The notes beneath the pieces are model-generated. The model did not search any database and was not told where the DNA came from. It worked only from the letters and a program-made list of their open reading frames with translations. This document shows, one piece after another, positions 23,154 to 38,112 of a stretch of DNA of 64,000 nucleotides. Numbering within the stretch: position 1 is the first letter of the stretch; every line of letters begins with the position of its first letter. The translations under genes and the position numbers were made by a program. The DNA comes from Salegentibacter salegens (GTDB taxonomy: Bacteria; Bacteroidota; Bacteroidia; Flavobacteriales; Flavobacteriaceae), in NCBI RefSeq assembly GCF_900142975.1, contig NZ_LT670848.1, forward strand, positions 124,001 to 188,000. Reading direction: 5' to 3'.

Positions 23154-24527
23154 TTATAGCTCTAAATTTATCACATCATTAATCGCGGGAATGCTAACTG
23201 GGTAATTATAACGATCTTTTATTTTGACCCTTAATGAATCTAAGGCAGTAGGTTCACCGTGAATTAAAAATACCTTTTCAGGAATATTTTTTATTTCTGA
23301 AATCCAATTCAGCAACTCCTGCTGATCGGCATGGGCAGAGAGGCTTTCTATTTTTAGTATTTTAGCCTTTACCGGGCAATACTTTCCGAAGATTTTTACT
23401 TCTGAAGCTCCGTTTTCAAGTTGCCTTCCTCTTGTTCCTTCGGCCTGGTATCCTGCCAATAAAACAGTAGTTTCGGGTTTATCTATTAAATAACGCAAAT
23501 AGGTGAGTACGCGACCGCCGGTAACCATTCCACTGCCCGCAATTACAACTTTAGACCTGTTTTCATCTATAGTTTTCCAGGTATCGCGGTATGAAGTGAT
23601 AATATTGAAATAGGAAAGCATTTTTCTAAATTCATCTGGCTCTACTTTATGCCACTTGCTAAAACCTTCAAATAAATCCAGGACTTCATTGCCCATAGGA
23701 CTATCTATGTAAATAGGGATTTCCGGGATTTTATTTGTTTTAATTAAAAGGTAAAGTTTGTACATAATTCCCTGTAAACGCTCTACGGCAAAACTTGGAA
23801 TAATAAGATTTCCTTTTTTGTTGATGGTTTCCTTAATGGTTTCAGTTAGAATTTTATCTGAATCATCTTCGGGATGAAGCCGGTCGCCATAGGTACTTTC
23901 TAAAAACAAGTAATCTGCCCGTTCAGGTTTATTGGGTGCTTCCAAAAGCACATCTTTTTCCCGCCCAATATCTCCTGAAAACACAAAACGTTTATCGAAA
24001 ATCTCAAATTCAATAAAAGTTGAACCTAAAATATGGCCGTTGGTTTGATAACGATATTTTATATTTTCTGAAATTCTATACCACTCATTCAGTTCTATAC
24101 TTTTAAATAAACCTATAGTTTTTTCGGCATCACTGGTGGTATATAGAGGCAAGGCCGGTTGGTGTTTACTATATTCTTCTTTATTGGCTCTTTCTGCATC
24201 TTCTTCCTGGATTTTCGCACTGTCTTTTAAAATTACCCCAGCAATTCCTAAAGTTGGAGGTGTACCAAGAATAGGATTTTTATAACCCTGTTTTACTAAT
24301 CGTGGGAGATATCCCGTGTGATCCAGGTGACCGTGAGTAAGCAATATCAAATCTATATTTGCAGGATCAAAAGGAAAATCTTTCCAATTGAGTTCCCGTA
24401 AACTTTTAACTCCCTGGAATAGTCCGCAATCTATTAAGAAATTTAGTTCTGGGGTTTCTATTAGAAATTTTGATCCGGTAACCGTTCCTGAACCTCCCAG
24501 AAAATGAATTTTGACTTGCTTTTTCAT
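23154..24527 (-). CDS. MBL-fold / beta-CASP RNA-processing exonuclease
   Basis: 457 residues. Metallo-beta-lactamase motif 2 is HGHLDHTG, motif 3 lies around the conserved His of QTNGHILGST, and motif 4 is SGDIG. The beta-CASP domain occupies roughly 210-380 with IPSFAVERLQ and GSGMVTGGR. The C-terminal SLSAHADQQELLNWI supplies the last metal His. Such proteins (CPSF-73/YSH1-like) are RNA exo- or endonucleases. It is the last gene of a five-gene operon, 5 bp after an ATP-cone nuclease and following three universal stress genes, which suggests RNA turnover under stress. Target RNAs unknown. Confidence 0.9.
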   Translation of the reverse strand: MKKQVKIHFLGGSGTVTGSKFLIETPELNFLIDCGLFQGVKSLRELNWKDFPFDPANIDLILLTHGHLDHTGYLPRLVKQGYKNPILGTPPTLGIAGVILKDSAKIQEEDAERANKEEYSKHQPALPLYTTSDAEKTIGLFKSIELNEWYRISENIKYRYQTNGHILGSTFIEFEIFDKRFVFSGDIGREKDVLLEAPNKPERADYLFLESTYGDRLHPEDDSDKILTETIKETINKKGNLIIPSFAVERLQGIMYKLYLLIKTNKIPEIPIYIDSPMGNEVLDLFEGFSKWHKVEPDEFRKMLSYFNIITSYRDTWKTIDENRSKVVIAGSGMVTGGRVLTYLRYLIDKPETTVLLAGYQAEGTRGRQLENGASEVKIFGKYCPVKAKILKIESLSAHADQQELLNWISEIKNIPEKVFLIHGEPTALDSLRVKIKDRYNYPVSIPAINDVINLEL

Positions 24528-24532
24528 AATTT

Positions 24533-25369
24533 TTAATGTTTGCAGAGATCTTTCATTTCTTCAAGTATTCTCTTTTTTCGCGGATTATTAATTCCTAAAT
24601 GGTCAAGGTAAAACGTATCGTTTATTAGTTCCTGGCACAAAACTACGTCCCGACTTAATAAAAAATTTTTTTCTCTTTCTGAAAGTAAGGTTGAAACCGT
24701 AATAGGGTATAAGCCTAATTGGTCTATTCTATCTTTAAGCCCTTCGTCTTTAGGATAATCCCAGCTAAGTAATTTTAGATTGGCACATTTGGCATATTTT
24801 ACCGCATCTGAGGTAAACCTTGTATTGGTAACCACCCAACCTTCTTCAAAATCCAGTTTATTTTCTCCATTACTTCTGAAATTTTTTATATCCCGAAACC
24901 TGGAGTCTATATAAAGCGGAATTTTTACATCACAATTTTTACCTGCATTATGAAATTTACATTCTATTAAAACAAGTTTTGAATCTGTTTTTGCCTCTAC
25001 ATCAATTTCGTGGGTAACGCATTTTCCCTGGTAGATTTTCCCGGTTTGGGTTTTATAACCACTATGAGTTAAAAGTGCGGCAATAAATTTTTCGAATGGG
25101 AAGCCGGTTGGCCCCAATTCGTAAATAGCGGTTTTTAATTTATACTTTGAAGCACTGGTTTTATTGCCTTTTTTAAGTAAATTAAAAGCACGATTATAAA
25201 TTTCTTTGGTAGTGATACCTTCATAAAGTTCGGCTTTTAACTTTTCAATGGTATTTTGAATCAGTTCTTCATTGGCGCCAGACCTCCTTAAAGATTCTGC
25301 AACTCTTTCAATAGAAAAGTTAGCTTTTTCACCAGAAGCTTTTATAATTTTTAGGTTGGAGATATCCAT
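24533..25369 (-). CDS. ATP-cone domain fused to PD-(D/E)XK nuclease
   Basis: 278 residues. Residues about 5-90 are an ATP-cone (KIIKASGEKANFSIERV; EGITTKEIYNRAF), the nucleotide-sensing module known from NrdR and ribonucleotide reductase. Residues about 95-205 are an Mrr-like nuclease domain: GYKTQTG, then E121-I-D123, then E136-C-K138, followed by GWVVTNTRFTSDAVKYA. The C-terminal part (LGINNPRKKRILEEM) may be helix-hairpin-helix-like. There is no methyltransferase nearby, so it is not a classical restriction system. It lies in an operon with universal stress proteins and an MBL RNase. ATP/dATP-gated DNA or RNA cleavage is inference. Confidence 0.82.
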   Translation of the reverse strand: MDISNLKIIKASGEKANFSIERVAESLRRSGANEELIQNTIEKLKAELYEGITTKEIYNRAFNLLKKGNKTSASKYKLKTAIYELGPTGFPFEKFIAALLTHSGYKTQTGKIYQGKCVTHEIDVEAKTDSKLVLIECKFHNAGKNCDVKIPLYIDSRFRDIKNFRSNGENKLDFEEGWVVTNTRFTSDAVKYAKCANLKLLSWDYPKDEGLKDRIDQLGLYPITVSTLLSEREKNFLLSRDVVLCQELINDTFYLDHLGINNPRKKRILEEMKDLCKH

Positions 25370-25405
25370 TTTAGTAGGTTTTTCCAGGATTAATAGTTTT
25401 CAATA

Positions 25406-26239
25406 TTATAAATCTGAAGGCATAAAAAGCATAGGAATTTGGGGTTTCTTTCCTAATTCTTTAAGTAAGGATTTTGAAAAAAGATTTTCGAAAAAACCTC
25501 TTTTTTTATGGTTTAAAACCAACACATCACTATTTCTGCTTTCAATGAAACTATGAATTCCTTTGGTGACTTTAATATTTGTTAGCGTGTGGAAACTGTG
25601 AGAAACCTCCTTAAAATAATCGTGTAATTCTTCTTTTGTATTTTTCTGTTCTTCAGTTAGGTTCTCGGTGTCCTGAATATAAAGAATTCTAATACTGGCT
25701 TTAAATTTCTTAGCCATATCTATTAAAAAGTTTATTTCATAATCTGAAAACGATTTATCGTATCGAGTGGCCAGCACCAGCTCTTTTTTTACTTCTGGCA
25801 CATAAACACAATTATCTGGTATAAGTAAAACCGGCATATGATCTACCGATTCTATTACGTTCATACTATTGGTACCAAAAATACGGTCGTCTGGTTCGGT
25901 TTCACCTTTAGTTCCCATGATTATGAGATCAAAGATTATTTCTTTTTGTATTTCAATAACAGCATCGTCTAACCAGGATTCTATAATTATAGATTTAAAC
26001 CTATGATTTTGGTTCTTGTTAATTATAGCCACCTCTTTTAGTAGCTTTTTCATCGAGATTTCATTTTCGCTTTTAGCCTGGGCTAAACTATTTCCATTAA
26101 TATCTGGAGTATAAAATTCTGGTTTGCAGGCATTCAAAAAATAAAAATTACAAAGCTCATTTTGAAATAGACTAAAGGCATAGACAGTAGCTTTCCAGGC
26201 GTTAGCCGAAAAATCGGTGGGGATGAGTATATTTTTCAT
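25406..26239 (-). CDS. tandem-domain universal stress protein (UspA family), copy 1
   Basis: 277 residues with two Usp folds. The N-terminal domain begins ILIPTDFSANAWKA and ends with the nucleotide motif MGTKG...FGTNS, matching G-2x-G-9x-G(S/T), so ATP binding is likely. The C-terminal domain (ELVLATRYDKSFSDYE to VLNHKKRGFFENLF) lacks that motif. It is the third of three adjacent paralogues that have diverged strongly in sequence. Gaps: 2 bp from the previous usp gene and 36 bp to the ATP-cone nuclease. Confidence 0.9.
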   Translation of the reverse strand: MKNILIPTDFSANAWKATVYAFSLFQNELCNFYFLNACKPEFYTPDINGNSLAQAKSENEISMKKLLKEVAIINKNQNHRFKSIIIESWLDDAVIEIQKEIIFDLIIMGTKGETEPDDRIFGTNSMNVIESVDHMPVLLIPDNCVYVPEVKKELVLATRYDKSFSDYEINFLIDMAKKFKASIRILYIQDTENLTEEQKNTKEELHDYFKEVSHSFHTLTNIKVTKGIHSFIESRNSDVLVLNHKKRGFFENLFSKSLLKELGKKPQIPMLFMPSDL

Positions 26240-26241
26240 AA

Positions 26242-27090
26242 CTAATTGAATTTTCCTGATTGGATGACCATAAAGGGCACCTTAATATGAAAACCTATTT
26301 TATTTACGACGGGCCTAAATAGGAGGTTTTCAAAGAAGCTACGTTTGTTATTTACCATGAATAGTAAATCTACTTCATTTTGTTCCTGGTATTTTTTTAT
26401 GGCTTTGGGTACACTTTTGTTTTCAATTGTATAAAATTGATGCGGAGTGTCTTCCAGAATTTTGCCGAGGTTTTTCTTATTTTTTTCCTGTTTTTCGTCC
26501 AGGTCTTTTCCAAAATAAACATGCAAAATATTAAACTTAGCCGTATGTTTTTCTCCCAAATTAAAAATTGGTTCCAGTTGTGCGGCAATAAAATCTAATT
26601 CAAAATCTGTAGGAAATAGAATGTTTACAGGAGGATGATATTCATAATCTGAAGGAATCATTAATAGGGGAGCTTTTAGCTTATTAATAGCATGCACACT
26701 ATTGGTGCCTATTAGAATTTCCTCGGCACCGGTTGCGCCCTGGGTTCCCATAACCACCAGGTCTATTTCTTTAGATTTCACCTGTACTCTTATCTCATCT
26801 ATTAAAAGATTGAAAGCTGAAATCTTCTCGAAATGATGATTTGGATTTTTGAAATCACGATTAATTTTTCGTTCTACTTTTCGCAATCCGGTAAGGGAAT
26901 TTTTTTTATAAGCTTCAGCGAGATTAGGTTGCGTACTGTTGTATAAAATATATTCAGAATCATATAAAACCGGTGTATAAGTATTAAGAAGATAAAAAGT
27001 ACATTCTTCATCTTTAAACGCTTTAATTGCATAAGCAATCGCATTATAAGCGTTTTCTGAAAAATCTGTGGGTAGGAGTATTTTTTTCAT
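26242..27090 (-). CDS. tandem-domain universal stress protein, copy 2
   Basis: 282 residues, same two-domain layout as its neighbours. The N-terminal domain begins ILLPTDFSENAYNA and carries MGTQGATGAEEILIGTNS, a complete ATP-binding motif. The C-terminal domain starts near NILFPTDFELDFIAAQ and lacks it. Adjacent paralogues lie 2 bp downstream and 12 bp upstream. Confidence 0.9.
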   Translation of the reverse strand: MKKILLPTDFSENAYNAIAYAIKAFKDEECTFYLLNTYTPVLYDSEYILYNSTQPNLAEAYKKNSLTGLRKVERKINRDFKNPNHHFEKISAFNLLIDEIRVQVKSKEIDLVVMGTQGATGAEEILIGTNSVHAINKLKAPLLMIPSDYEYHPPVNILFPTDFELDFIAAQLEPIFNLGEKHTAKFNILHVYFGKDLDEKQEKNKKNLGKILEDTPHQFYTIENKSVPKAIKKYQEQNEVDLLFMVNNKRSFFENLLFRPVVNKIGFHIKVPFMVIQSGKFN

Positions 27091-27102
27091 GATTTCTAAA
27101 TT

Positions 27103-27957
27103 TTAAATGCTTTCCCTATTAAAATTTTGCAACGCAAGCAGGGGAACTTTTGGTTGTAAACCCACTTTATCGATGGTAGAAGTAAGGAGCATATCTTCTA
27201 AATAGGTGTGCCGGGAATTCACCATCACTAAAAGGTCTATTTTATTAGCTGCTATAAATTCTTCTATAGCTTTTTCCTTTTGTAATTCATCACTTTGGTG
27301 TTCTTCTAACCTTATATTGTAGAATTGCTGTTTCAAAAATTCCAGATTATCTTTTTGCCTGGCAGAAGTAGCCTTATGTTTAGATAAATACAGAAAATGA
27401 ATAATAGATTTAAAATCGCGGGCAATTTCTCCAACAATTTTTAATTCCCTTTTTTGATACGGAATCAAAAAATTAGTTGGGAATAAGATGTTTTTTGGTT
27501 CCTGGTAATTAAAGTTCGCCGGAATAGCTAAAACCGGGCACTGCACATACTTTAGAACAAGTAAGGTATTGCTTCCAAAACCAAGATCCCTATCGTTGGT
27601 GGCACCTCGAGTTCCCATGATAACGAGATCGGCATTTTCTGAATTTACCAGGCTGTTTACTTCATCTACCAGGTCGCCAAACGCAGCTATAGATCTAACA
27701 CTATGCCTGGGATTGCAAAATTCGTCGTGAACTTTAGAGCTAATTTCCTTCAGGACCATTTCTGCCTTTGCTCTGGTAACCGCTTTAAGCTCATCTATTA
27801 ATTCTTTACTTAGCAGGTTTTCATCGGTATAAACCTTATCTGCATAAGTATTTAAAAGAATTATTTCGCTCTTCTCATACTTAAAAAGCTGGCAGGCAAA
27901 TCGCAATGCGTTATAGGCATTTTCTGAAAAATCGGTGGGTAAGATTATCTTTCTCAT
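27103..27957 (-). CDS. tandem-domain universal stress protein, copy 3 (first gene of stress operon)
   Basis: 284 residues. The N-terminal Usp domain begins IILPTDFSENAYNALRFA and carries MGTRGATNDRDLGFGSNT, the ATP-binding motif. The second domain begins NILFPTNFLIPYQKRE. It is the first gene of the minus-strand operon usp-usp-usp-ATP-cone nuclease-MBL RNase. Its start codon is about 20 bp downstream of a TAACTTTA -7 element, which lies 23 bp after a Crp/Fnr-like operator (27977-28019), so the operon is probably switched on by the Crp/Fnr-type regulator at 29416-30429. Confidence 0.9.
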   Translation of the reverse strand: MRKIILPTDFSENAYNALRFACQLFKYEKSEIILLNTYADKVYTDENLLSKELIDELKAVTRAKAEMVLKEISSKVHDEFCNPRHSVRSIAAFGDLVDEVNSLVNSENADLVIMGTRGATNDRDLGFGSNTLLVLKYVQCPVLAIPANFNYQEPKNILFPTNFLIPYQKRELKIVGEIARDFKSIIHFLYLSKHKATSARQKDNLEFLKQQFYNIRLEEHQSDELQKEKAIEEFIAANKIDLLVMVNSRHTYLEDMLLTSTIDKVGLQPKVPLLALQNFNRESI

Positions 27958-27976
27958 CTTCTAAAACTTTGAATCT

Positions 27977-28019
27977 TAAAGTTAAGAGAACAGCTAAGTT
28001 TAAACTATGAGGAAAATCA
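27977..28019 (-). promoter_or_regulatory. Crp/Fnr-type promoter of the usp stress operon
   Basis: On the minus strand, TGATTTTCCTCA (28019-28008), 23 bases, then TAACTTTA (27984-27977), about 20 bp before the first usp start. The half-sites TGA and TCA and the 23-base gap match four other promoters in this locus exactly, and the spacing fits a class-II activator site near -41. Confidence 0.6.
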
Positions 28020-28072
28020 GTTTGTACTTGAATTTTAAGCTTTTACAGTTGAAAGATAGCTTTGACTTAATA

Positions 28073-28115
28073 TGACAGGTATCATATTTATTATCAATGC
28101 TTAGGGGTATATTTA
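28073..28115 (+). promoter_or_regulatory. Crp/Fnr-type promoter of the WG-repeat gene
   Basis: TGACAGGTATCA (28073-28084), 23 bases, then TATATTTA (28108-28115), 24 bp before the start codon at 28140. Same architecture as the divergent usp promoter and three others nearby. Confidence 0.6.
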
Positions 28116-28139
28116 GAGGTAATTTTAAAACTCTAACTT

Positions 28140-28763
28140 ATGAAAAATCTAATAATAGGAATCTTACTAAGTATTCCGTTTGTGCTATTTGCACAAGAGA
28201 CAAAAGAATTTGATTTTGTATCCAATCAGGAAGATGGATTTAGCACCGTTAGGCAAGGTGGTAATTGGGGTTTTATAAATACCAGCGGCGAGCTGTTATT
28301 TGAACTTAGAAACGATCTTGTTACAACCGACAATCCTAAAAGTGGTAAGATTGGAGTGGCGGGAATAAAATACCCGCAATTAAAAGATGAACGGGCCATT
28401 ATTAGCAAAAAGAAAGATGGCGTTAATTATTATGGTTTTATAAATACTGAAGGAAAAACAGTTATTGAACCTGAATTTTTAAATGTGAGTAACTTCTCTA
28501 ACGGAAAAGCCCTTGCTTTAAAACTCGAAGAAGAGAGACTTGGTAAAAATCAACTTTTGGGAAAAGGGGTAATTTCTTATAAGTATGATGTAGTTCTTAT
28601 AGATAAAGCCGGGGAAGTAGTAACATATTTAGAAGGGCCTTTTCCGGTTGCGGTTTCTAAGAAAAAATTAAGAGAGGCTCCTGCAATTAATGCAAAATGG
28701 CTGGGAGAAAAAGTGGTTAGTGTAAAGGGGCCTAATGGGAAATGGAAAATTCATAAGCTTTAA
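28140..28763 (+). CDS. secreted WG-repeat protein
   Basis: 207 residues with a signal peptide (MKNLIIGILLSIPFVLFAQ). Two WG (KWG Leptospira-type) repeats are clear: GGNWGFINTSGELLFEL near 40-56 and NYYGFINTEGKTVIEPEF near 97-115. The remainder is degenerate repeat or unassigned. WG repeats are thought to form beta-structures for protein interaction; no enzymatic motif is present. It is divergent from the stress operon and has its own Crp/Fnr-type promoter (28073-28115). Confidence 0.75.
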   Translation: MKNLIIGILLSIPFVLFAQETKEFDFVSNQEDGFSTVRQGGNWGFINTSGELLFELRNDLVTTDNPKSGKIGVAGIKYPQLKDERAIISKKKDGVNYYGFINTEGKTVIEPEFLNVSNFSNGKALALKLEEERLGKNQLLGKGVISYKYDVVLIDKAGEVVTYLEGPFPVAVSKKKLREAPAINAKWLGEKVVSVKGPNGKWKIHKL

Positions 28764-28772
28764 AACAAAAAA

Positions 28773-28799
28773 TGCTGTCCCGGAATTTTCGGGACAGCA
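28773..28799. terminator. strong hairpin after WG gene, T run on minus strand
   Basis: TGCTGTCCCG pairs with CGGGACAGCA (10 bp, 7-nt loop). The T-rich tract lies on the minus-strand side (TTTTTTGTTTT), so it should stop minus-strand transcription best, although it sits 9 bp after a plus-strand gene. It may act in both directions. Confidence 0.7.
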
Positions 28800-28969
28800 G
28801 CAAGTTCAATTTCAAACTCGTTTTCTTTTTCCTTTTTACTTAATGCTGGGAATAGATCTTTATCAAAATCTCCATTAAAAAAACGAGTTAGATTAAAGAT
28901 TACTCCAATCCATTAAATTACGAATTGTATATCCGTATAGTGTCCTAATTATAAAGTTTAGCTTTATAC
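28800..28969. other. gap with possible gene remnant
   Basis: No intact gene is seen. On the minus strand, 28760-28912 is an open frame of about 50 codons without any start codon, reading NGDFDKDLFPALSKKEKENE and ending ELAAVPKIPGQHFLF. It runs through the hairpin at 28773-28799. It could be the decayed 3' end of a former gene, or chance in AT-rich DNA. Confidence 0.25.
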
Positions 28970-29028
28970 GTCACGTCGAGCGCAGTCGAGACGTTTTTGT
29001 TAGACCTTTCGACTGCGCTCAAGGTGAC
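28970..29028. repeat. GTCA...TGAC intergenic repeat, copy 3 (strong palindrome)
   Basis: GTCA at 28970 and TGAC ending at 29028. The inner arms GAGCGCAGTCGA (28978-28989) and TCGACTGCGCTC (29009-29020) are perfectly complementary. This is the well-known GACTGCGCTC type of intergenic palindrome in Bacteroidetes. The outer flanks are also roughly inverted: TCCGTA...CCTAA...AAGTTT on the left, AAACTTAGG...TACGGA on the right. Confidence 0.75.
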
Positions 29029-29140
29029 AAAAACAAACTTAGGATTGTTTACGGACAATCATTAATTACGATCTAAAAAATATATTTAATGAAATGAAAA
29101 TCGGTTGTTTAATAAATTTCAAAATAATAGGGAAGGTCTT

Positions 29141-29340
29141 AAAAGACAGAAACAGGAGACCATTGCCTCCTGTTTCTTAAGAAGATATTAAGTTTACTCT
29201 TTAACACTGTTTTGATATCAGTGATCTTACACGAAGTAAAATTTGTATATCAGGTTAAAAAATACCTTTGATATCTTCTAATTTGATTTACAACTCTAAG
29301 AGTTAGGAAAAACAAATTATTTTATATGGATAAATTTCCT
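29141..29340 (-). ncRNA. candidate small RNA under Crp/Fnr-type control
   Basis: A minus-strand Crp/Fnr-type promoter (29344-29386) faces a stretch without a credible reading frame. The predicted transcript of about 200 nt can form four hairpins: ATATCA+GGT with ACC+TGATAT (2-nt bulge, loop near 29258), TTAC/GTAA around TTCG, CACTG/CAGTG around ATATCAAAA, and a final 11-bp stem AGAAACAGGAG with CTCCTGTTTCT (29148-29177) followed by TGTCTTTT. The 9-mer GATATCAAA occurs twice, once in a stem and once in a loop. This resembles in layout the FNR-dependent sRNA FnrS of enterobacteria, but no sequence relation is claimed. The 3' end assumes the last hairpin terminates. Confidence 0.5.
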
Positions 29341-29343
29341 GCT

Positions 29344-29386
29344 TAAAAATAGAATAAAACATCCTTCAAAAAAATGATAAATGTCA
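29344..29386 (-). promoter_or_regulatory. Crp/Fnr-type promoter of candidate small RNA
   Basis: On the minus strand, TGACATTTATCA (29386-29375), 23 bases, then TATTTTTA (29351-29344). Same half-sites and spacing as the promoters at 27977, 28073, 30642 and 34151. The only minus-strand item directly downstream is the candidate small RNA. Confidence 0.6.
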
Positions 29387-29415
29387 GAAAATCAATATTT
29401 AACAAAAAATTAGGT

Positions 29416-30429
29416 TTATGTGATTTCCTGTAATTTGTCCGGTTTCAGGATGTTTATTTTTTTTCCTTTTATAGCAATAATTCCTTCTTTTTTAAGACTG
29501 GAAAGGCTACGAATAAAACTTTCAGTAGAAATGCCGGCCATACTGGCTAAATCGGTCCTGGAGATATTGAGCCCTTTAAATTCGGGGTTTTCCAATTCGC
29601 TGGCAAATTGAAGAATAGTGTTAGAAGTTTTCTTTAATACCGAAGCATAAGCCATTTCCAAAAGTTGTGATTTTAGAGTCAAAACGGTATCGGCTAAATA
29701 TTGGGCAAGATCCAGGTTTAATTCCTGGTTTTCCTGGAGTATTTCCCTGAATTCTGTATGCAAAATTCTATAAAATTTAGAGGGTTCTAAGCTAGTTGCC
29801 ATTTCGGTAGTAAGCGGGTTTTCATGAAAACCATATAAACCCAGCAAATCATTTTTACGGTAAATCCCTGTAATTAATTCTTTTCCCAATTGATCCATTC
29901 GGGAAGTTTTAATCAAACCCTGCTTAATTAAATAGATGAAACTGGAATGCCGGTTTTCCCGAAATAAAATTTTATGCTTATCCAAACTTATGAGTTCCCC
30001 CTTTTTTTCCATAAAACTTTTTAAGGCTTCAATATCTGGAACCGCGGTTTTTTTAACCTTTTTAGTTCCTTTAAAATTCTTACTTTCAGCATTTGTTAGT
30101 GAAACTATTTTTTGCCATAGCTCCTCCTGGGAATGGGAGTTTGGTAAGAATTTATGTTTAGTATAAAGTGGTTTTTGGGTTTCAATTTTATCTTCAGCAA
30201 CAATAGAAAGTATAGGAAACTTTAAAAGCGCAGGATTTTCACGAAAAATTTTAGAAGAAATTGGTGTTTTTTTATCCCAGATCAGTAAATCAGGTTTATG
30301 CTTTAAAAATAATTCCTGGAAGGTTTTTAGGGAATTTGAATAAATAAATTCATAATCCTGTTCTTCCCTGAATTCACCTGGTATACGATGACCGGAATTA
30401 TTATCTGAAATATAAAGAATACACTTCAT
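29416..30429 (-). CDS. Crp/Fnr-family transcription regulator with N-terminal pseudo-receiver domain
   Basis: 337 residues. Residues 1-110 look like a two-component receiver (KCILYISDNN; PDLLIWDKKTPIS with an Asp at the phosphoacceptor strand), but the acidic pocket is incomplete. Residues about 130-250 are a cNMP-binding-type beta-roll (ILFRENRHSSFIYLIKQGLIK). Residues about 265-330 are a Crp winged helix with recognition helix STESFIRSLSSL, which keeps the Glu and Arg (E..xxR) that read TGA half-sites. The only Cys is C3, so an FNR-type iron-sulfur cluster is excluded. It probably controls the five TGAnnnnnnTCA promoters around it. A TAACTTTG -7 candidate on its own strand is at 30532-30539. 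Confidence 0.88.
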   Translation of the reverse strand: MKCILYISDNNSGHRIPGEFREEQDYEFIYSNSLKTFQELFLKHKPDLLIWDKKTPISSKIFRENPALLKFPILSIVAEDKIETQKPLYTKHKFLPNSHSQEELWQKIVSLTNAESKNFKGTKKVKKTAVPDIEALKSFMEKKGELISLDKHKILFRENRHSSFIYLIKQGLIKTSRMDQLGKELITGIYRKNDLLGLYGFHENPLTTEMATSLEPSKFYRILHTEFREILQENQELNLDLAQYLADTVLTLKSQLLEMAYASVLKKTSNTILQFASELENPEFKGLNISRTDLASMAGISTESFIRSLSSLKKEGIIAIKGKKINILKPDKLQEIT

Positions 30430-30641
30430 CCCTGGAGAGCTTAAATATTAATAATAAGTTAGCTGGGGATTGTTTGGCATTCCAATTGGGGGGAAGTAAG
30501 GGAGAAATGCTTTAAACAACATCTAAATATACAAAGTTATTTTTTATAATCTATAGCAGATTAATTCTATTTATATGATTGATTTTCAAACAATTATGTA
30601 TTTTTAGTTTATCCCGAAAAAGAATGCTTCCGCTTAAAAAC

Positions 30642-30684
30642 TGATTTTTATCATTTTTAGCTAAGTTTATGAGACTTATCTTTA
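30642..30684 (+). promoter_or_regulatory. Crp/Fnr-type promoter of TerB-like gene
   Basis: TGATTTTTATCA (30642-30653), 23 bases, then TATCTTTA (30677-30684), 18 bp before the start codon at 30703. The operator is a full FNR-like palindrome TGATnnnnATCA. Confidence 0.62.
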
Positions 30685-30702
30685 AAGGGTAAAACTTTTA
30701 TT

Positions 30703-31113
30703 ATGAAACTCTCTAAAAAACAAGTCTTCACCGAAGGATTTTATCAGAATATCGGAATGCTTTTCTACGCTATTGCAGCCTCTGATAAAGTGGTGCAAGC
30801 TGAAGAAATTAAAACACTGAATGATCTGGTGCAAAAGAAATGGGTGCCAATTGATGATGCAACCGATGAATTTGGCACCGATGAAGCCTATAAAATTGAA
30901 ATGATCTTTGACTGGCTGGAAGAAAATTCACCTGAAGCTGAATGGGCTTTTAACGAATTTAGGCAATACAAAAAAGACAATGAAAGATTGTTTACTTCGC
31001 AAATTAAGCAGTTAATATGGGAGACTGCCGATGCTATTGCAGCTTCGTTTGCCGGAAAAAACAAATCTGAACTCATTATGCTTTCAAAATTAAAAATATT
31101 ACTTTCTTCCTAA
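30703..31113 (+). CDS. small TerB-like helical protein
   Basis: 136 residues, all-helical, cytoplasmic. The N-terminal LFYAIAASDKVVQAEEIKTLNDLV resembles the TerB/tellurite-resistance-like motif with acidic residues that may bind metal (D..V...E), and the C-terminal part is a helical bundle (ADAIAASFAGKNKSELIMLSKL). No function can be assigned. It is preceded by a Crp/Fnr-type promoter and divergent from the regulator gene, so it probably belongs to the same stress response. Confidence 0.6.
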   Translation: MKLSKKQVFTEGFYQNIGMLFYAIAASDKVVQAEEIKTLNDLVQKKWVPIDDATDEFGTDEAYKIEMIFDWLEENSPEAEWAFNEFRQYKKDNERLFTSQIKQLIWETADAIAASFAGKNKSELIMLSKLKILLSS

Positions 31114-31170
31114 AAGGAATAGAAAGTAACTAACCAAAATTTCTTCGTATATTTTAATGAAAATTAATAG

Positions 31171-31434
31171 ATGAAAACACTTATTTGCCAAAGTTGTGGA
31201 TGGCCTTTTACAAAAGCCACCGTAGGCACAAACCGAGATAAATCAGACAATACCGATTTCTGCCGGGATTGCTACCAGGATGGGGCTTTTACCGATAAAT
31301 CACTTAATTTGCATCAATTAGAAGTGAAATTACTTGAAATGGCAGAAATGCACGAAGATATTAGTCTGGAAGAAGCGCAGCAACTCATAAAGAAACTGCC
31401 CGAGCTTAAAAGATGGCGAATGGACCATATTTAG
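31171..31434 (+). CDS. small protein with putative zinc ribbon
   Basis: 87 residues. The N-terminal CQSCGWPF and FCRDCYQDGAFT form a four-Cys zinc ribbon typical of the short 'putative zinc ribbon' family. The C-terminal part is helical (LEVKLLEMAEMHEDISLEEAQQLIKK). It lies 57 bp after the TerB-like gene on the same strand and may share its transcript. Function unknown; a protein or nucleic-acid binder is plausible. Confidence 0.7.
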   Translation: MKTLICQSCGWPFTKATVGTNRDKSDNTDFCRDCYQDGAFTDKSLNLHQLEVKLLEMAEMHEDISLEEAQQLIKKLPELKRWRMDHI

Positions 31435-31505
31435 CTATTCTATTTTGAAATCTACTCGATTTTAAAGAATAATTTTTTGCTTAATCCTAAATTTATGCAT
31501 CTTTT

Positions 31506-32495
31506 TTATTGATTTTCTTTTTCCTCCCGGGCTTTTTGTCGTTCCAGTTTTCTAAAATATCCGCGGAATAAAATATTATGTTTTAAAGCTTCCATATTCT
31601 CATTAAAACGATGCGTGGCTTCCTCAATATTTTCCATACTTTGATCTAGATGATTCACGAAACTGCTGTCTTTTACCACATAATTAAGCGCTCCTTTTTC
31701 TGAATTTAGGCTATTTGAAAATTGTCCTAAATCGGCGCTAATTTCCTTTATTTGGGAAGATGTAGTTTCTAAATCTTTAATAATTGTGCTGAAACTTTTC
31801 TGTGCGCTAGAGTCACTAAGGAGTAAACCGGCCACGCTATTTTCGTAATCTACATTATTTAAAATACCATTTAGTTTTGCAAGTCCTGATTTTGCAGATT
31901 TGGTTGTTTCCTTCAAATTTTCAACGCTTTCCTGTACATTTTTAGCCAGGCTTTTATCTTTAAGTAAATCGCCTAAAACGCCTTCCCCGGAATTTATACT
32001 ATTGGTAATTTTTAAAAGGTCCTGGGTTAAAAGTGCTGCATTTTCATTGGTTTTGTTCAGGGTGTTCAGCATATCGGCAGTAGCAACCTGGCTAATTGAA
32101 ACAAGCGTGTCACCTTCTTGTAAGGTTGGTGATGGCACCTGATTGTTGGGTAAAATATTTAAAACCATACTTCCTACTAACCCGTCTGAATTTATGGTAG
32201 CGAGAGCATTGTTTTTAATTAAGTTTGCGGCTTCCCGATTAATAAGAATATCTACACAAATTGCCGTATCATTTAAAAATTTAATTTCTTTAACGGTTCC
32301 TACGTTCACCCCGGAATAACGAACATTATTGCCCGATTGCAATCCGTTTACATTCTTAAAAACAGAACTTACCATCATTGAATCACCAAACAGGTTTTGC
32401 TTATTTCCAATAAAAAAAACTCCCAGGGTGAAGATAATAAGCCCCGAAACAATAAGAAGACCCAGTTTTATATTTTGTGCAGAATTTGATTTCAT
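31506..32495 (-). CDS. mlaD: MlaD/MCE-family lipid transport substrate-binding protein
   Basis: 329 residues. One N-terminal membrane anchor (LGLLIVSGLIIFTLGVFFIG) is followed by an MCE domain (VRYSGVNVGTVKEIKFL; ATINSDGLVGSMVLNI) and a long coiled-coil tail (NLKETTKSAKSGLAKLNGI). It is the periplasmic lipid-binding component of a Mla-type phospholipid transporter. It is the last gene of mlaEFD, 6 bp after mlaF. Confidence 0.92.
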   Translation of the reverse strand: MKSNSAQNIKLGLLIVSGLIIFTLGVFFIGNKQNLFGDSMMVSSVFKNVNGLQSGNNVRYSGVNVGTVKEIKFLNDTAICVDILINREAANLIKNNALATINSDGLVGSMVLNILPNNQVPSPTLQEGDTLVSISQVATADMLNTLNKTNENAALLTQDLLKITNSINSGEGVLGDLLKDKSLAKNVQESVENLKETTKSAKSGLAKLNGILNNVDYENSVAGLLLSDSSAQKSFSTIIKDLETTSSQIKEISADLGQFSNSLNSEKGALNYVVKDSSFVNHLDQSMENIEEATHRFNENMEALKHNILFRGYFRKLERQKAREEKENQ

Positions 32496-32501
32496 AACTT
32501 T

Positions 32502-33233
32502 TTATTTAAAGAATGCTTTAATTTTTGGGTCACCAGATGCCGCCAGCTCATTAAAAGTTCCTTCGGCATAATCTTTTCCATCAAGCAATAAGATCATTCG
32601 GTTTGAAATTACCCGCGCACAATCCACATCGTGCGTAATTATTAAAGATGAGGTTGCATATTTCTTCTGAATATTCATCATTAATAAAATGATTTCTTTT
32701 GCCGTAATAGGGTCTAAACCCGTGGTAGGTTCGTCGTAAATTATAATCTTCGGTTTTAAAATAAGTGCTCTTGCCAGTGCTATGCGGCGTTGCATTCCTC
32801 CAGAAAGTTCTGCAGGCATAAGATCTATAGTTTGTGGTAAGCCTACATTTTCCAGTGCTTCTTTTACTAGAGCTTCAGTTTTCTTTTCAGAATCTTTTCT
32901 ATGTCTTCTTAACGGAAATTCTAAATTTTCCCGTACCGTCATAGAATCGTACAAAGCGCTGCCCTGAAATAAAAAACCGATGTTAGTTCTCAACTCATCC
33001 AGTTCATGTTGTTTCATTTTAGAGATATCTTTTCCTAAAACTTTAATACTGCCCTGGTCAAAATCCATTAAACCTACCAGGCATTTTATCATCACCGATT
33101 TCCCCGATCCCGATTTCCCCATTAAAACCAGGTTTTCACCTTCAAATAGTTTTAAATTGAAATTCTTTAAAACTTCAGCCTCGCCAAAGCTCTTATACAT
33201 ATCTTTTATCTCTATGACGGTTTTATTTTTCAT
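32502..33233 (-). CDS. mlaF: Mla-type phospholipid ABC transporter ATPase
   Basis: 243 residues. Walker A GKSGSGKS, signature LSGGMQRR, Walker B IIIYDEPTTGLDP and H-loop IITHDVDCARV are complete. It is the cytoplasmic ATPase of the lipid transporter with MlaE and MlaD. Start of mlaF and end of mlaE are 2 bp apart. Confidence 0.95.
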   Translation of the reverse strand: MKNKTVIEIKDMYKSFGEAEVLKNFNLKLFEGENLVLMGKSGSGKSVMIKCLVGLMDFDQGSIKVLGKDISKMKQHELDELRTNIGFLFQGSALYDSMTVRENLEFPLRRHRKDSEKKTEALVKEALENVGLPQTIDLMPAELSGGMQRRIALARALILKPKIIIYDEPTTGLDPITAKEIILLMMNIQKKYATSSLIITHDVDCARVISNRMILLLDGKDYAEGTFNELAASGDPKIKAFFK

Positions 33234-33235
33234 TT

Positions 33236-34015
33236 TTAGTTATAAAAAATATCAGTGATGAAAACGGCGATAAAATCTAATACAAACAGTAGCATAGAAG
33301 TAAAAACTACCGCTGAATTTGAGGCTTTCCCAACGCCGGCGGTTCCTTTTTTACTGTTATAGCCTTTAAAACAACCCACCAGGCCAATGGCAAAACCAAA
33401 GAAAAAGGTTTTTACCGTTGCGGGAAGAAGATCGGTAAATTCCAGGGCGGCAAAAACCTGGTTAAAATAGAGGGTAAAAGAAACATCGCCCTTTATGTTT
33501 TCTATAATTGCAGAGCCAATTAGCGCTACAAAATCGCCCACTATTACCAAAAGTGGCAACATACAGGTGGCAGCCAGAATCCTGGTTACTACCAGAAATT
33601 TAAACGGGTTAGTCCCTGAAACTTCCATAGCATCTATTTGTTCGGTAACCCGCATAGAGCCTAATTCGGCACCTATACTTGAACCAATTCTTCCGGCGCA
33701 AATAAGCGCGATAATTACTGGACCAATTTCCCGAACAATAGATATGCTTATCATAGACGGCATCCAGGAAACCGCACCAAATTCCATTAAAGTTGGCCGG
33801 GATTGCAGGGTAAATACGAGACCCAGAATAAACCCGGTAACACTCACTAAAAGCAAAGATTTATTGCCCATTTGGTAGCATTGCTTCAGGAATTCCCTGA
33901 ACTCAAATGGCATACTGAAAAGTTCTCTAAAATACCTGCCGGTAAACTTCCCCATTTCCCCGATTTCCAGGAAGAAGGAACCTAAACCCGATTGATATGA
34001 GGATAACATTTTCAT
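33236..34015 (-). CDS. mlaE: Mla-type phospholipid ABC transporter permease
   Basis: 259 residues with about five or six membrane segments. MlaE motifs include REIGPVIIALICAGRIGSS, GAELGSMRVTEQIDAMEV and FFGFAIGLVGCFKGY. It is the first gene of mlaEFD. Its 5' leader is about 130 nt and starts at a Crp/Fnr-type promoter (34151-34193), linking outer-membrane lipid asymmetry to the same stress regulator. Confidence 0.94.
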   Translation of the reverse strand: MKMLSSYQSGLGSFFLEIGEMGKFTGRYFRELFSMPFEFREFLKQCYQMGNKSLLLVSVTGFILGLVFTLQSRPTLMEFGAVSWMPSMISISIVREIGPVIIALICAGRIGSSIGAELGSMRVTEQIDAMEVSGTNPFKFLVVTRILAATCMLPLLVIVGDFVALIGSAIIENIKGDVSFTLYFNQVFAALEFTDLLPATVKTFFFGFAIGLVGCFKGYNSKKGTAGVGKASNSAVVFTSMLLFVLDFIAVFITDIFYN

Positions 34016-34150
34016 CTTTAAACATTTAGGTGAATAACCAGAAATTAAAAATCTTGCATAAAAGTAAAGTGGCGCGCCGCAAGAGGCATTATTGGAATAT
34101 ATCTTGATTTTGTGACGAGCCTTTGATTCTTTAAAATCTCGGTTACCAAG

Positions 34151-34193
34151 TAAATTTAGCGTTAAACGGCTTCAATAGAAATGATATAAATCA
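34151..34193 (-). promoter_or_regulatory. Crp/Fnr-type promoter of mlaEFD
   Basis: On the minus strand, TGATTTATATCA (34193-34182), 23 bases, then TAAATTTA (34158-34151). Same layout as the four other promoters of this type. The start codon of mlaE is 135 bp downstream. Confidence 0.58.
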
Positions 34194-34464
34194 GCTTTAT
34201 TAAAGCTTATAGGTGTAAACGTTAGGTAGAAATTTGTGCCAGTGAAAATGAATTAAAATATAATTTTAACATTTTAATATTAAAATACTTGTTAATTTTA
34301 GCTGCTTAAAAATTAACTTTTGAAATTCTGAAGGGGTGGTTTCCGCAGTTTTAGGGCGATTTTGTTAATATAAATGGCAAATGGGTTCATATTTCTCTGA
34401 CTTAACATATAATTTTGGTTTTTGCCTTTTTAATTTTCTATAAGACTGACTTAATCATTTCTAA
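34194..34464. other. upstream region of the light-sensing cluster
   Basis: No gene is seen. A -7-like TAATTTTG lies at 34410-34417, about 47 bp before the kinase start codon, but no TTG is found at the usual upstream distance. The middle (34240-34310) is extremely AT-rich. I see no Crp/Fnr-type site positioned for the plus strand here. Confidence 0.35.
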
Positions 34465-37400
34465 ATGACAAAAGTAAATAACTATCCTTCTAAATCGGAG
34501 TTAGAAACTAAGCTTAAAATAGACGAGCCACGCGTTATTGCAGTAGGCGCAAGTGCCGGGGGCCTGGAAGCTCTTAAAGCTTTTTTTAAAGACATACCCG
34601 AAAACGATAAGAATGCTTATGTAGTTATTCAGCATCTTTCTCCCGATTATAAGAGCATGATGGCAGAGCTTCTTAAAAAAAGTACCAATCTGCCAATTCG
34701 TGGAATTAAGGATAAAATGAAGATGAAGCAGGGGCATATTTATCTAATACCTCCGGCCAATAATCTGTCGATTGAAGATAATAAACTTAACCTTGTAGAA
34801 AAACCAAAAGATCAAAGCTTAAACCTACCCATAGATATGTTCTTTGAAGCACTTTCTAAAGAGCGCAAAGAAAAAGCTATTGGGATAATTTTAAGCGGTA
34901 CTGGTAGTGACGGTTCCAGAGGAGTAAGGGCAATAAAAGAACGTGACGGAATGATTATGGTTCAGGATCCCGAAGAATCTAAGTTTGATGGGATGCCACA
35001 AAGTGCCATTAACACGGGATTGGTAGATTACGTCTTACCAATTTCTAAAATGGCCCAGGAACTCAAGAATTTTATAGATTCTCCCGCGGTTTTTCATTTT
35101 AAAGACGGGGATTATAACTACAACGAAAGCGAATTAATGAAAATTCTTCGCTTTATAGACGAAAAAACCGGTCTTGATTTCAGGGAATATAAACACGCCA
35201 CACTTGCCCGTAGAATTGCCAGAAGGGTGAATGTGTGTAAATGTAATAGTCTTTCAGATTATTATCAGTTCTTATTGAATAACGATGAAGAGGTAGAAAT
35301 ACTGCATCGGGAGTTTTTAATTGGGGTTACCAAGTTTTTTAGAGATTCTAAGGTTTGGAAAGTGCTTAGAAAAGAAGTGATCCCTAAACTGGTAGCACAA
35401 AAAAAAGATGGAGAGGTTATAAAACTTTGGGATGTTGCCTGCAGTAGTGGAGAAGAAGCCTATTCTTTTGCCATGCTTATTAATGAAGAAATTGAAAAGC
35501 AGCGAAAAAGTGTAGACCTGAAGATTTTTGCAACCGATATTTCTCAAAAACACCTGGATATTGGTGCTGAAGCATTTTATCCCGAAAGTATTGTTGCCGA
35601 TATCGATTCAGAATTATTGCTGAAATATTTTATTAGCGAACCTAATGGATATAAGGTAATAGATAAGATGCGCCGAATGGTAGTTTTCTCCAGGCACAAT
35701 ATCATTAAAAATCCGCCTTTCAGTAATATGGATATGGTGTCTTGCCGAAACCTATTAATTTATTTTCAACCCGGAATCCAAAATAAAGCTTTAAACTTTT
35801 TACAATACGCTTTAAAAGTTGGCGGCTATCTGGTTTTAGGAACTTCAGAAAATGTTTCGTCCCAGAAAAATAACTTTAAAGTGATAAATCGTTCAGCAAA
35901 AATTTATCAAAATGAAAGTGCCGATAAACGGTTAAATTCAAATATTTCGCCAGCGATATCGCAAAATAGGTCGTTTTCTAATACAAAGGAAATTCAACGC
36001 CCAGCTTATAGAAAATCTTCAAATCCCGTTAAGAATAAACTCACCGAAGAACTTAATGAAACTATCCTGGAAACTTTTGGTGGATCCAGTGTGTTTATAG
36101 ACAACGATTTTAATATTTTACAGGCGGTAGGGGAATTTAGAAAATATGCAAATTTACCGGTTAATGGTTTTTCGGTAAATCTACTGGATATGCTAAGTGT
36201 AGACTTAAAATATATTATACAAAGTACCGTAAAAAAGTCTAAAAAGAATAGCGAAAAACTTAGATATCAAGATGCTGCTTTTGAGCATAACGGTGAAAAG
36301 AAATCGGTAGATATTATAATAAAACCCTACCAACAGCAAATTGAAAATTCTAATGCGAGTTTTGTTGTTACTTTCATAGAAAAAGAAGTAAACCTAATAG
36401 ATGTTAAAACCCTTGATAAATTAACGCTTACCAATCGTACCAAGGAATTTGTTGCAGATCTTGAAGAAGAGCTGAAAGAGACTAAAGAAGAGCTGCATAC
36501 TTCAATGGAGGAAATTGAAACCAGTAACGAAGAGTTACAGGCTGCAAATGAAGAACTGCTGGCATCTAACGAAGAATTGCAAAGTACCAATGAAGAATTG
36601 CAAAGTGTAAATGAAGAGATTAATACGGTTAATGCTGAAAATCTTCAAAAGGTAGAAGATCTGGCGGCACTAAATACCGATATGAACAACTTGCTGGAAA
36701 GTACCGAAATTGGAGTTATTTTCCTGGATGAGGGCTTAAGAATAAGGAAATTTACACCGGCTATCCAAAGACATTTTAATTTAATAGAATCAGATGAAGG
36801 CCGGCCTATAGAACATTTTACCTCCAGTATGGGTAAAAGCAATTTAATTACCCGTTGTAAGCGAGTACTTAGAACAGGAAAAATTTTAGAAAAGCAGATT
36901 ATGACCAAAGAAGGGACATACTATCTGCGAAGAATTTCTCCCTATATTAATTCTAATAACGAAATTAATGGTGTTGTAATTACCTTTATAGACGTAGGCT
37001 TATTGCAACGTTCTAAAGAAAGATTAATAGCCAGTGAAAAACGATTTAAATCTTTCTATGAAGAAGATCCTGTAATTCATATTAGTGTAGATTCCCAAAC
37101 CCAGTTAATAGCACAATGCAATGAAATGGCAGTTAGTAGATTGGGATATAATACCAAAGAAGAATTAATAGACAAGCCTGTTTTTGATCTTTATACCGAA
37201 GAATCACAACTTAGAGCTTTAAAATCTAATAAAGAATTTAAAGAGACTGGTGTTATTGTAAATATGGAGCAGGAAATACTTACTGCTTCAGGAGATTTAC
37301 TTCCAGTAATATTAAATGCCACTGCAGAGAGGGATGTTGATGGTAAGATAATGACCATTAGATATACCTGTGTAGATATTTCAGCCTTAAAGAAAGCCGA

Positions 37401-38106
37401 ATCAAAATTAAAGCAACAACACGAAGATCTTGAACGTGCCAATAAAGATTTGGAACAATTTGTATCTATTTGTTCTCACGATCTTCAGGAGCCGCTTTCA
37501 ACTATAAAATTTGGTAGTGATGTACTTGGTAAAATGTATTCCTCGCAATTAGACGAAAAAGGAAAAGATTATGTGCAGTATATAAAAGATGCTTCTACAA
37601 GACTTTCAGAACAAATTAAAGCATTACTGGAGCATTCAAGAATTGGCCGAAATGGAGAGAAAAGCCTGGTGAACACAAAAGAAGTTGTTGAGGTTGTAAA
37701 GTATGATCTTGGCAAAAGAATTAAAGATACCAATGCAAAAGTTAATGCCGGTACGCTTCCAAAAATAATGGGTTACGAAGTAGAATTGCGCTTGCTATTT
37801 CAAAATCTAATAAGTAATGCCATAAAATATACGCCTAAAGAGCGCAATCCCGATATTCGCATTGCAGCGTATCGTGAAGGGAAATTTTGGGTTTTCTCGG
37901 TGATGGATAATGGCTACGGAATTTCAGAAGAAGATAAAAAGAATATTTTTACCATTTTTAACCGCGTGAAAGAAACCAACGGAAATGATGGTACAGGAGT
38001 TGGGCTGGCACACGTAGAAAAAATTGTACAACTTCACGAAGGCACCATTTGGGTAGATAGCCAGGTTGGGGTGGGTAGTACTTTCTATTTTAAATTAAAA
38101 GGATAG
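34465..38106 (+). CDS. CheB-CheR-PAS hybrid sensor histidine kinase
   Basis: 1213 residues. Residues 20-205: CheB methylesterase with triad S30 (GASAGG), H57 (IQHLSP) and D149 (GTGSDG). Residues 215-485: CheR methyltransferase with the SAM motif [10 protein letters not shown]. Residues about 650-740: a repetitive coiled coil built on NEELQ repeats. Two PAS domains follow to about 980. HisKA has H1005 in CSHDLQEP, and the HATPase ends in GTGVGLAHV. No flagellar or MCP genes are nearby, so the CheB/CheR halves probably act inside the receptor, not in swimming chemotaxis. The gap to the bacteriophytochrome gene is only 6 bp, suggesting joint signalling. Confidence 0.92.
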
Positions 38107-38112
38107 CTGTGT

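Follow-up and report, generated by a model that had tools for sequence, protein, structure and literature searches.

In the Proteobacteria, the FNR, Anr and FixK regulons are governed by Crp/Fnr activators whose operator of TGA/TCA half-sites is centred at -41.5, and their targets include the cbb3 oxidase, hemN, denitrification genes and the universal stress proteins (Usp). In the rhizobial cascade, the PAS kinase FixL, the receiver protein FixJ and the Crp-type activator FixK act in that order on class-II targets, and in Escherichia coli the small RNA FnrS is driven directly by an FNR-type activator. The consensus for FixK and FnrN has been given as TTGANCNNGATCAANG (PMC4999443), and the structured RNAs Flavo-1 and Rfp are known from the Flavobacteriaceae (PMC9723704). 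Crp homologues of the Flavobacteriales have been assigned to MalR-like carbon sensing (PMC8510549), an assignment that neither supports nor tests the operator code considered here. Among the literature matches listed, the portions available described no oxygen regulon, operator or sensor of the Flavobacteriaceae, which is weak evidence of absence. A stretch of 64,000 nucleotides from Salegentibacter salegens (positions 124001-188000 of the 4.01-Mb contig NZ_LT670848.1), hereafter the window, contains five promoters in which a Crp/Fnr-type operator precedes a -7 box at one fixed distance. With good confidence, these five sites are regarded as class-II operator-promoters of a low-oxygen regulon common to much of the Flavobacteriaceae.

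An earlier note on this DNA had claimed five units, each 43 bases long, whose palindrome and box are in every case 23 bases apart, and all coordinates, strands and gaps were borne out. The sites lie ahead of the usp operon (27977..28019, minus strand; operator 28019-28008, box 27984-27977, predicted start at approximately 27972), a WG-repeat gene (28073..28115, plus strand; predicted start at approximately 28120), a candidate small RNA (29344..29386, minus strand), a gene that the note called TerB-like (30642..30684, plus strand) and mlaE (34151..34193, minus strand), all five being exact pattern matches. As stated there, four of the five begin with TGAY and end with RTCA, the usp site reading TGATTTTCCTCA, and all five fall between open reading frames (ORFs) of at least 80 amino acids. 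The further claim that a single fixed distance would not arise by chance was likewise upheld: with the box TAnnTTTR, a scan of the window over spacers of 10-39 bases returned five matches at 23 and 0-2 at each other length, and 300 dinucleotide shuffles of the window gave at the 23-base spacing a mean of 0.053 matches and a maximum of two.

A scan of the whole genome, set beforehand as the check able to refute the pattern, gave 26 matches with the TAnnTTTR box and none with the reversed pattern. A set confined to this neighbourhood is thereby rejected; the five sites are part of a regulon for which the strict pattern alone gives 26 sites or more. When TGATN4RTCA was scanned over gaps of 8-38, the genome yielded 23 matches (nine for the reversed control, all gaps taken together), ten of them at a gap of 23, and an eleventh (154642) was listed at a shorter gap. 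The looser box TAnnTT returned 26 matches versus four in the control, five of the 26 being copies of two repeated sequences: one 41-base match (TGACCTTAATCACAATATT...) occurs three times, at 1064752, 1576090 and 3306683 of G000:C1, and is probably a repeated element, and another occurs twice, at 1889748 and 1898241. By the ORF caller used, the 21 sites beyond the window all avoid genes (a looser ORF list placed one, L008, within a short ORF), and 15 of them end 15-42 nt upstream of a start codon. Pfam assigned the genes first or near downstream of the sites to CcoNO/FixO (cbb3 oxidase), a heavy-metal P-type ATPase, the NosZ propeller and cytochrome c, and others to radical SAM (hemN-like), Usp, the ribosome-hibernation family Ribosomal_S30AE, NadA, FTHFS and a PEP-synthase-like family; a protein near one site named by eye as truncated-haemoglobin-like had no Pfam match. 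Such content is usual for an anaerobic or microaerobic regulon, and judged by its genes, the 26-site set looks like a low-oxygen regulon. In Flavobacterium psychrophilum, the cbb3 oxidase is induced under oxygen limitation (PMC9723704).

The start-site map of F. psychrophilum places TAnnTTTG at -12 to -5 (PMC9723704), and with a 23-base gap this would put the operator centre at -41.5, the class-II position; the spacing itself is fixed at 23 bases, and the value of -41.5 presupposes a box positioned as in that species. That paper's main text does not contain the word 'Crp'. As in the FNR, Anr and FixK regulons, the operator consists of TGA/TCA half-sites, but the outer TT/AA are not conserved, the TAnnTTTR box replaces the -10 element, and the base following the palindrome, about where a -33 element would lie, is T in 23 of the 26 genomic sites. 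The class-II Crp/Fnr reading that the note had advanced is supported by the genome-wide excess over controls and by conservation in relatives. In the eight Salegentibacter loci related to that of the window, 37 matches were found at the 23-base gap versus at most four at any other gap from 10 to 39. The usp and TerB-like sites were kept in 8/8 loci, the mla site in all seven that reach so far, the RNA site in 7/8 by the strict pattern and the WG site in 6/8; the 37th match, found in L065, appears fortuitous. From the end of the mlaE box to the start codon there are 136 bases in the window versus 16-17 in L063, L064 and L066. Across 120 Flavobacteriaceae genomes, 2092 sites were counted, against 443 with an N20 gap and 305 for the reversed pattern, and 19 loci of other Bacteroidia gave eight matches at 23 bases, four at 22 and at most one at any other gap. 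Boxes of the form TAnnTTAG recur at RNA promoters in other genera, so that the strict pattern undercounts sites.

Six HTH_Crp_2 matches, five above the cut-off, were found in the genome. One belongs to a protein at 2.23 Mb that combines a canonical receiver, a cNMP domain and a Crp domain, and is encoded directly behind a PAS histidine kinase (2.235 Mb) with, by sequence, a haem-ligand His position in its PAS domain together with HisKA and HATPase domains. Compared with the PDB, the kinase PAS of this genome had FixL as its seven best matches (best E 1e-16) and DosP next, and the haem-ligand His column is aligned with that of FixL. The motif LIP-x6-H was present in 27 of 29 partner ORFs and, by eye, in 13 neighbouring kinases at 18 loci of the class that belong to other families (a 19th locus was dropped), and the PAS domain at 2.235 Mb is probably haem-binding. 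Of the 120 Flavobacteriaceae, 54 encode the receiver-Crp fusion; across the class, it was detected at E 1e-50 in 74 of 149 genomes. Among the 30 best-scoring loci of this regulator family, of which 28 could be scored with the box relaxed to TAnnT[TA], a class-II site lay 9-76 nt after the receiver-Crp stop codon in 26, and the ORF behind that site usually looks by eye like usp. The second regulator, an FNR, carried an N-terminal CxxC and the helix ESAIR in all ten orthologues read (each from a genome with many sites and no fusion), and is probably of the Fe-S type. The median number of sites per genome was 3 with neither regulator (n=24), 14.5 with FNR only (n=42), 18 with the fusion only (n=28) and 28.5 with both (n=26), each regulator group differing from neither at p <1e-7. 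No orthologue of the CxxC FNR was found in the S. salegens genome, the best match being the receiver-Crp itself (E 1.6e-28), and FNR was therefore ruled out as the regulator there.

Several observations weigh against this account. The site counts were compared over genomes without correction for phylogeny, and six sites elsewhere in the genome (of 21) lie more than 45 nt from the called start (83, 106, 205, 292, 452 and 654 nt), two of these at more than 400 nt. In genome G048 (82% complete, 6% contaminated), 33 sites were counted and neither regulator was detected. No more than 11 sites are present in each of six fusion-only genomes, and one genome that carries the fusion, G098, stands at background (6 sites vs 7 reversed); in eight FNR-only genomes the count is 6-7. 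In S. salegens itself, a Crp-family protein encoded at 1.97 Mb carries a CxxC (residues 46-49), with a different helix (STRAVVNR). The two most distant sites, 1743447-1743489 (L071; next called gene 654 nt downstream) and 1924442-1924484 (L072; 452 nt) of G000:C1, may precede small RNAs or long leaders.

The window encodes a Crp/Fnr regulator of its own (29416..30429, minus strand; 337 aa) with cNMP_binding and HTH_Crp_2 domains by Pfam and the recognition helix ESFIR. Its N-terminal receiver had no Pfam match, and the positions of the acidic pair, the phospho-Asp, the Thr/Ser and the Lys read D, N, D, V and N, which departs from the canonical receiver set; the orthologues in L125-L127 keep all receiver positions. 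On sequence grounds, the protein is a paralogue of the receiver-Crp fusion with a decayed receiver, and its single Cys does not provide Fe-S cluster ligands. Because ESFIR resembles ETLIR and ESAIR, its operator is likely that of the fusion and FNR, and it may act on the same operator as the fusion without being subject to the phosphorylation switch.

The note's candidate small RNA behind the third site also stood, with a conserved, covarying structure and relatives in other genera. It is predicted to span approximately 199 nt (29141..29339, minus strand; ends predicted) and to form a 5' hairpin, a rod of about 100 nt and a terminator hairpin, AAACAGGAG..CTCCTGTTT, followed by a T-run. About 190 nt downstream of the site were strongly conserved in 9/9 Salegentibacter sequences, with the terminator hairpin at the end, and the window RNA folds with z = -6.2. 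An alignment of 17 sequences, to which some genomes contribute second and tandem copies, has 97.3% of its pair cells paired; double changes occur in 13 of 58 pairs, a level reached by 0/500 shuffles. By BLAST, the RNA was detected in 14 of 60 relatives, a number that includes a 21-base match (E 1e-3) not counted as real. With E-values that are rough for both RNA models, R1 gave 19 matches in 15/120 genomes, and R2 gave matches in 33/120 at E 0.01, many of them weak. Outside the genus and G007, 16 R2 loci reach E 1e-5, of which seven were R1 matches used to train R2 (the first locus of G061, G034, G108, G110, G018, G049 and G032) and nine were untrained. Nine of the 16 lie less than 2 kb from a receiver-Crp gene (5/9 of the untrained loci lie within 2 kb) and three more within 13 kb. 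In 14 of the 16, a class-II site (box TAnnT[TA]) lies no more than about 270 nt upstream; of the remaining two, G037 is truncated at the end of its contig and G074 is regarded as a false match. The R2 matches L177 (G074, E 1e-5), L179 and L181 were rejected; they have no upstream class-II site and overlap coding ORFs. Two or more neighbouring matches on one strand occur in at least G031, G108, G034, G061, G037, G028 and G110. All of 11 RNAs folded end in a terminator hairpin, with z from -2.6 to -11.2 (60 shuffles each), and nine form a single long rod, which is missing from the minimum-energy folds of L139 and L141. Double changes rise to 48/58 pairs in a 25-sequence alignment, a count that leans towards the model because the model was fitted to that alignment. 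R1 gave nothing convincing (best E 0.67) on 29 receiver-Crp loci, L086-L114, that extend no further than 1.5 kb past the gene. A known RNA family was ruled out as its identity: Rfam had no match in window positions 25000-35500 at E 1, and in seven loci with RNA relatives only two weak matches, both in L061 and far from the RNA.

The RNA might instead be a long 5' leader of hsp20, since L061, L062, L063 and L065 have an Hsp20-like gene some 330 nt downstream of the promoter (Pfam was applied to L061). This is very doubtful: the RNA has a terminator hairpin of its own at the end, a separate class-II site with a relaxed or variant box (-7 variants TAAATTAG or TAATTTAA) stands between RNA and hsp20 in 5/5 relatives (L061, L062, L063, L065 and L066), and the window keeps the RNA intact with no hsp20 ORF of at least 80 aa nearby. 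About where relatives have hsp20, the window (28960-29040) holds an inverted-repeat-like element (GTCGAGCGCAGTCGAG...CGACTGCGCTCAAGGTGACA), which may be a small mobile repeat connected with the loss of hsp20. In L146 (G116), from a genome that lacks the receiver-Crp, a site, an RNA-like match, another site and an ORF that by eye resembles Hsp20 follow one another in the order of Salegentibacter.

It could also be that the regulon is real and its main activator is the pseudo-receiver Crp/Fnr protein of the window, acting on its own neighbourhood in response to a signal other than oxygen. The five sites lie within 6.2 kb around its gene, gene and sites are kept together in Salegentibacter, and the helix is of the same type. 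This is unlikely, in that the same operator stands genome-wide ahead of respiration genes and in many other genera, and the receiver Lys and Thr/Ser positions are lost in 9/9 aligned Salegentibacter proteins and the Asp in 7/9; the Crp/Fnr gene near the sites is one candidate regulator among others, and its receiver is decayed. Another Crp-family protein might bind the sites, the receiver-Crp sharing only some of them; one such protein, of 198 aa at 3.59 Mb, has a helix of the same type (ETVIR) and lies about 6 kb from the nosZ sites. Over the 120 genomes, site number tracks the receiver-Crp and FNR families, the two compared, and this version is quite improbable. That TGA/TCA and TAnnTTT are AT-rich words could make the pattern a compositional artefact of AT-rich intergenic DNA; chance is contradicted by every one of the controls (spacing, shuffle, reversed pattern and N20) and can be given practically no credence.

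The usp site precedes three genes (25406-27957, minus strand) for universal stress proteins by Pfam: 27103..27957, 26242..27090 and 25406..26239. Behind them on the same strand are ORFs for an ATP-cone and Mrr-type endonuclease-like protein (24533..25369) and a beta-CASP metallo-beta-lactamase nuclease-like protein (23154..24527), both named by Pfam and, by spacing only, probably part of the operon. On the plus strand, the WG-repeat protein (28140..28763) matches WG_beta_rep, and the small protein at 30703..31113 had no match in Pfam or NCBIfam, leaving the name TerB-like without backing; a zinc-ribbon protein (31171..31434, plus strand; Zn_ribbon_2) is perhaps cotranscribed with it, by spacing only. 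MlaE permease (33236..34015, minus strand; Pfam MlaE) is followed by ATPase-like (32502-33233, minus strand) and substrate-binding-like (31506-32495, minus strand) ORFs named by eye. CheB/CheR-PAS-kinase-like and phytochrome-like kinase genes (by eye) adjoin the mla genes at 34465-40326.

For the low-oxygen regulon, Crp/Fnr activators whose recognition helix reads E-S/T-x-I-R would bind the operator TGAY-N4-RTCAT and, centred at -41.5, take the place of a -33 element. Two sensor types would be read on one code, namely the CxxC, probably Fe-S, FNR and the receiver-Crp fusion under a FixL-like PAS kinase; with no FNR orthologue in S. salegens, the likely activators there are the 2.23-Mb receiver-Crp and/or the window paralogue with the decayed receiver. 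Low oxygen would then switch on respiration and haem genes elsewhere in the genome and, from the window, the Usp proteins, the WG protein, the TerB-like protein, Mla lipid transport and the structured RNA. The parallel with FixL-FixJ-FixK lies in a FixL-like PAS kinase, a receiver, a Crp-type activator and class-II targets; unlike that cascade, receiver and activator are one protein here, which would make one transcriptional step fewer. The RNA resembles FnrS in its predicted control by an FNR-type activator, but differs in its length of about 200 nt with a long rod, its sometimes tandem copies, its position near the regulator gene and its lack of an Rfam family; it is structured, as are Flavo-1 and Rfp, and had no match in Rfam. 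The Flavobacteriaceae are not known to possess Hfq.

With more reserve, the balance tips towards a family-wide class-II oxygen code with interchangeable sensors, either the CxxC FNR or a FixJ/FixK-like one-protein fusion under a FixL-like kinase, in which fast-evolving, sometimes tandem, terminator-ended rod RNAs near the sensor/usp locus would serve as an FnrS-like arm, and a second fusion in Salegentibacter, its phosphorylation site lost, would now form a receiver-independent branch with its own RNA. The operator pattern allows the regulon to be listed in any flavobacterial genome, and offers for testing a family of structured RNAs whose promoter is defined. Together, operator and regulators predict where in the family oxygen would act through a haem kinase and where through an Fe-S FNR.

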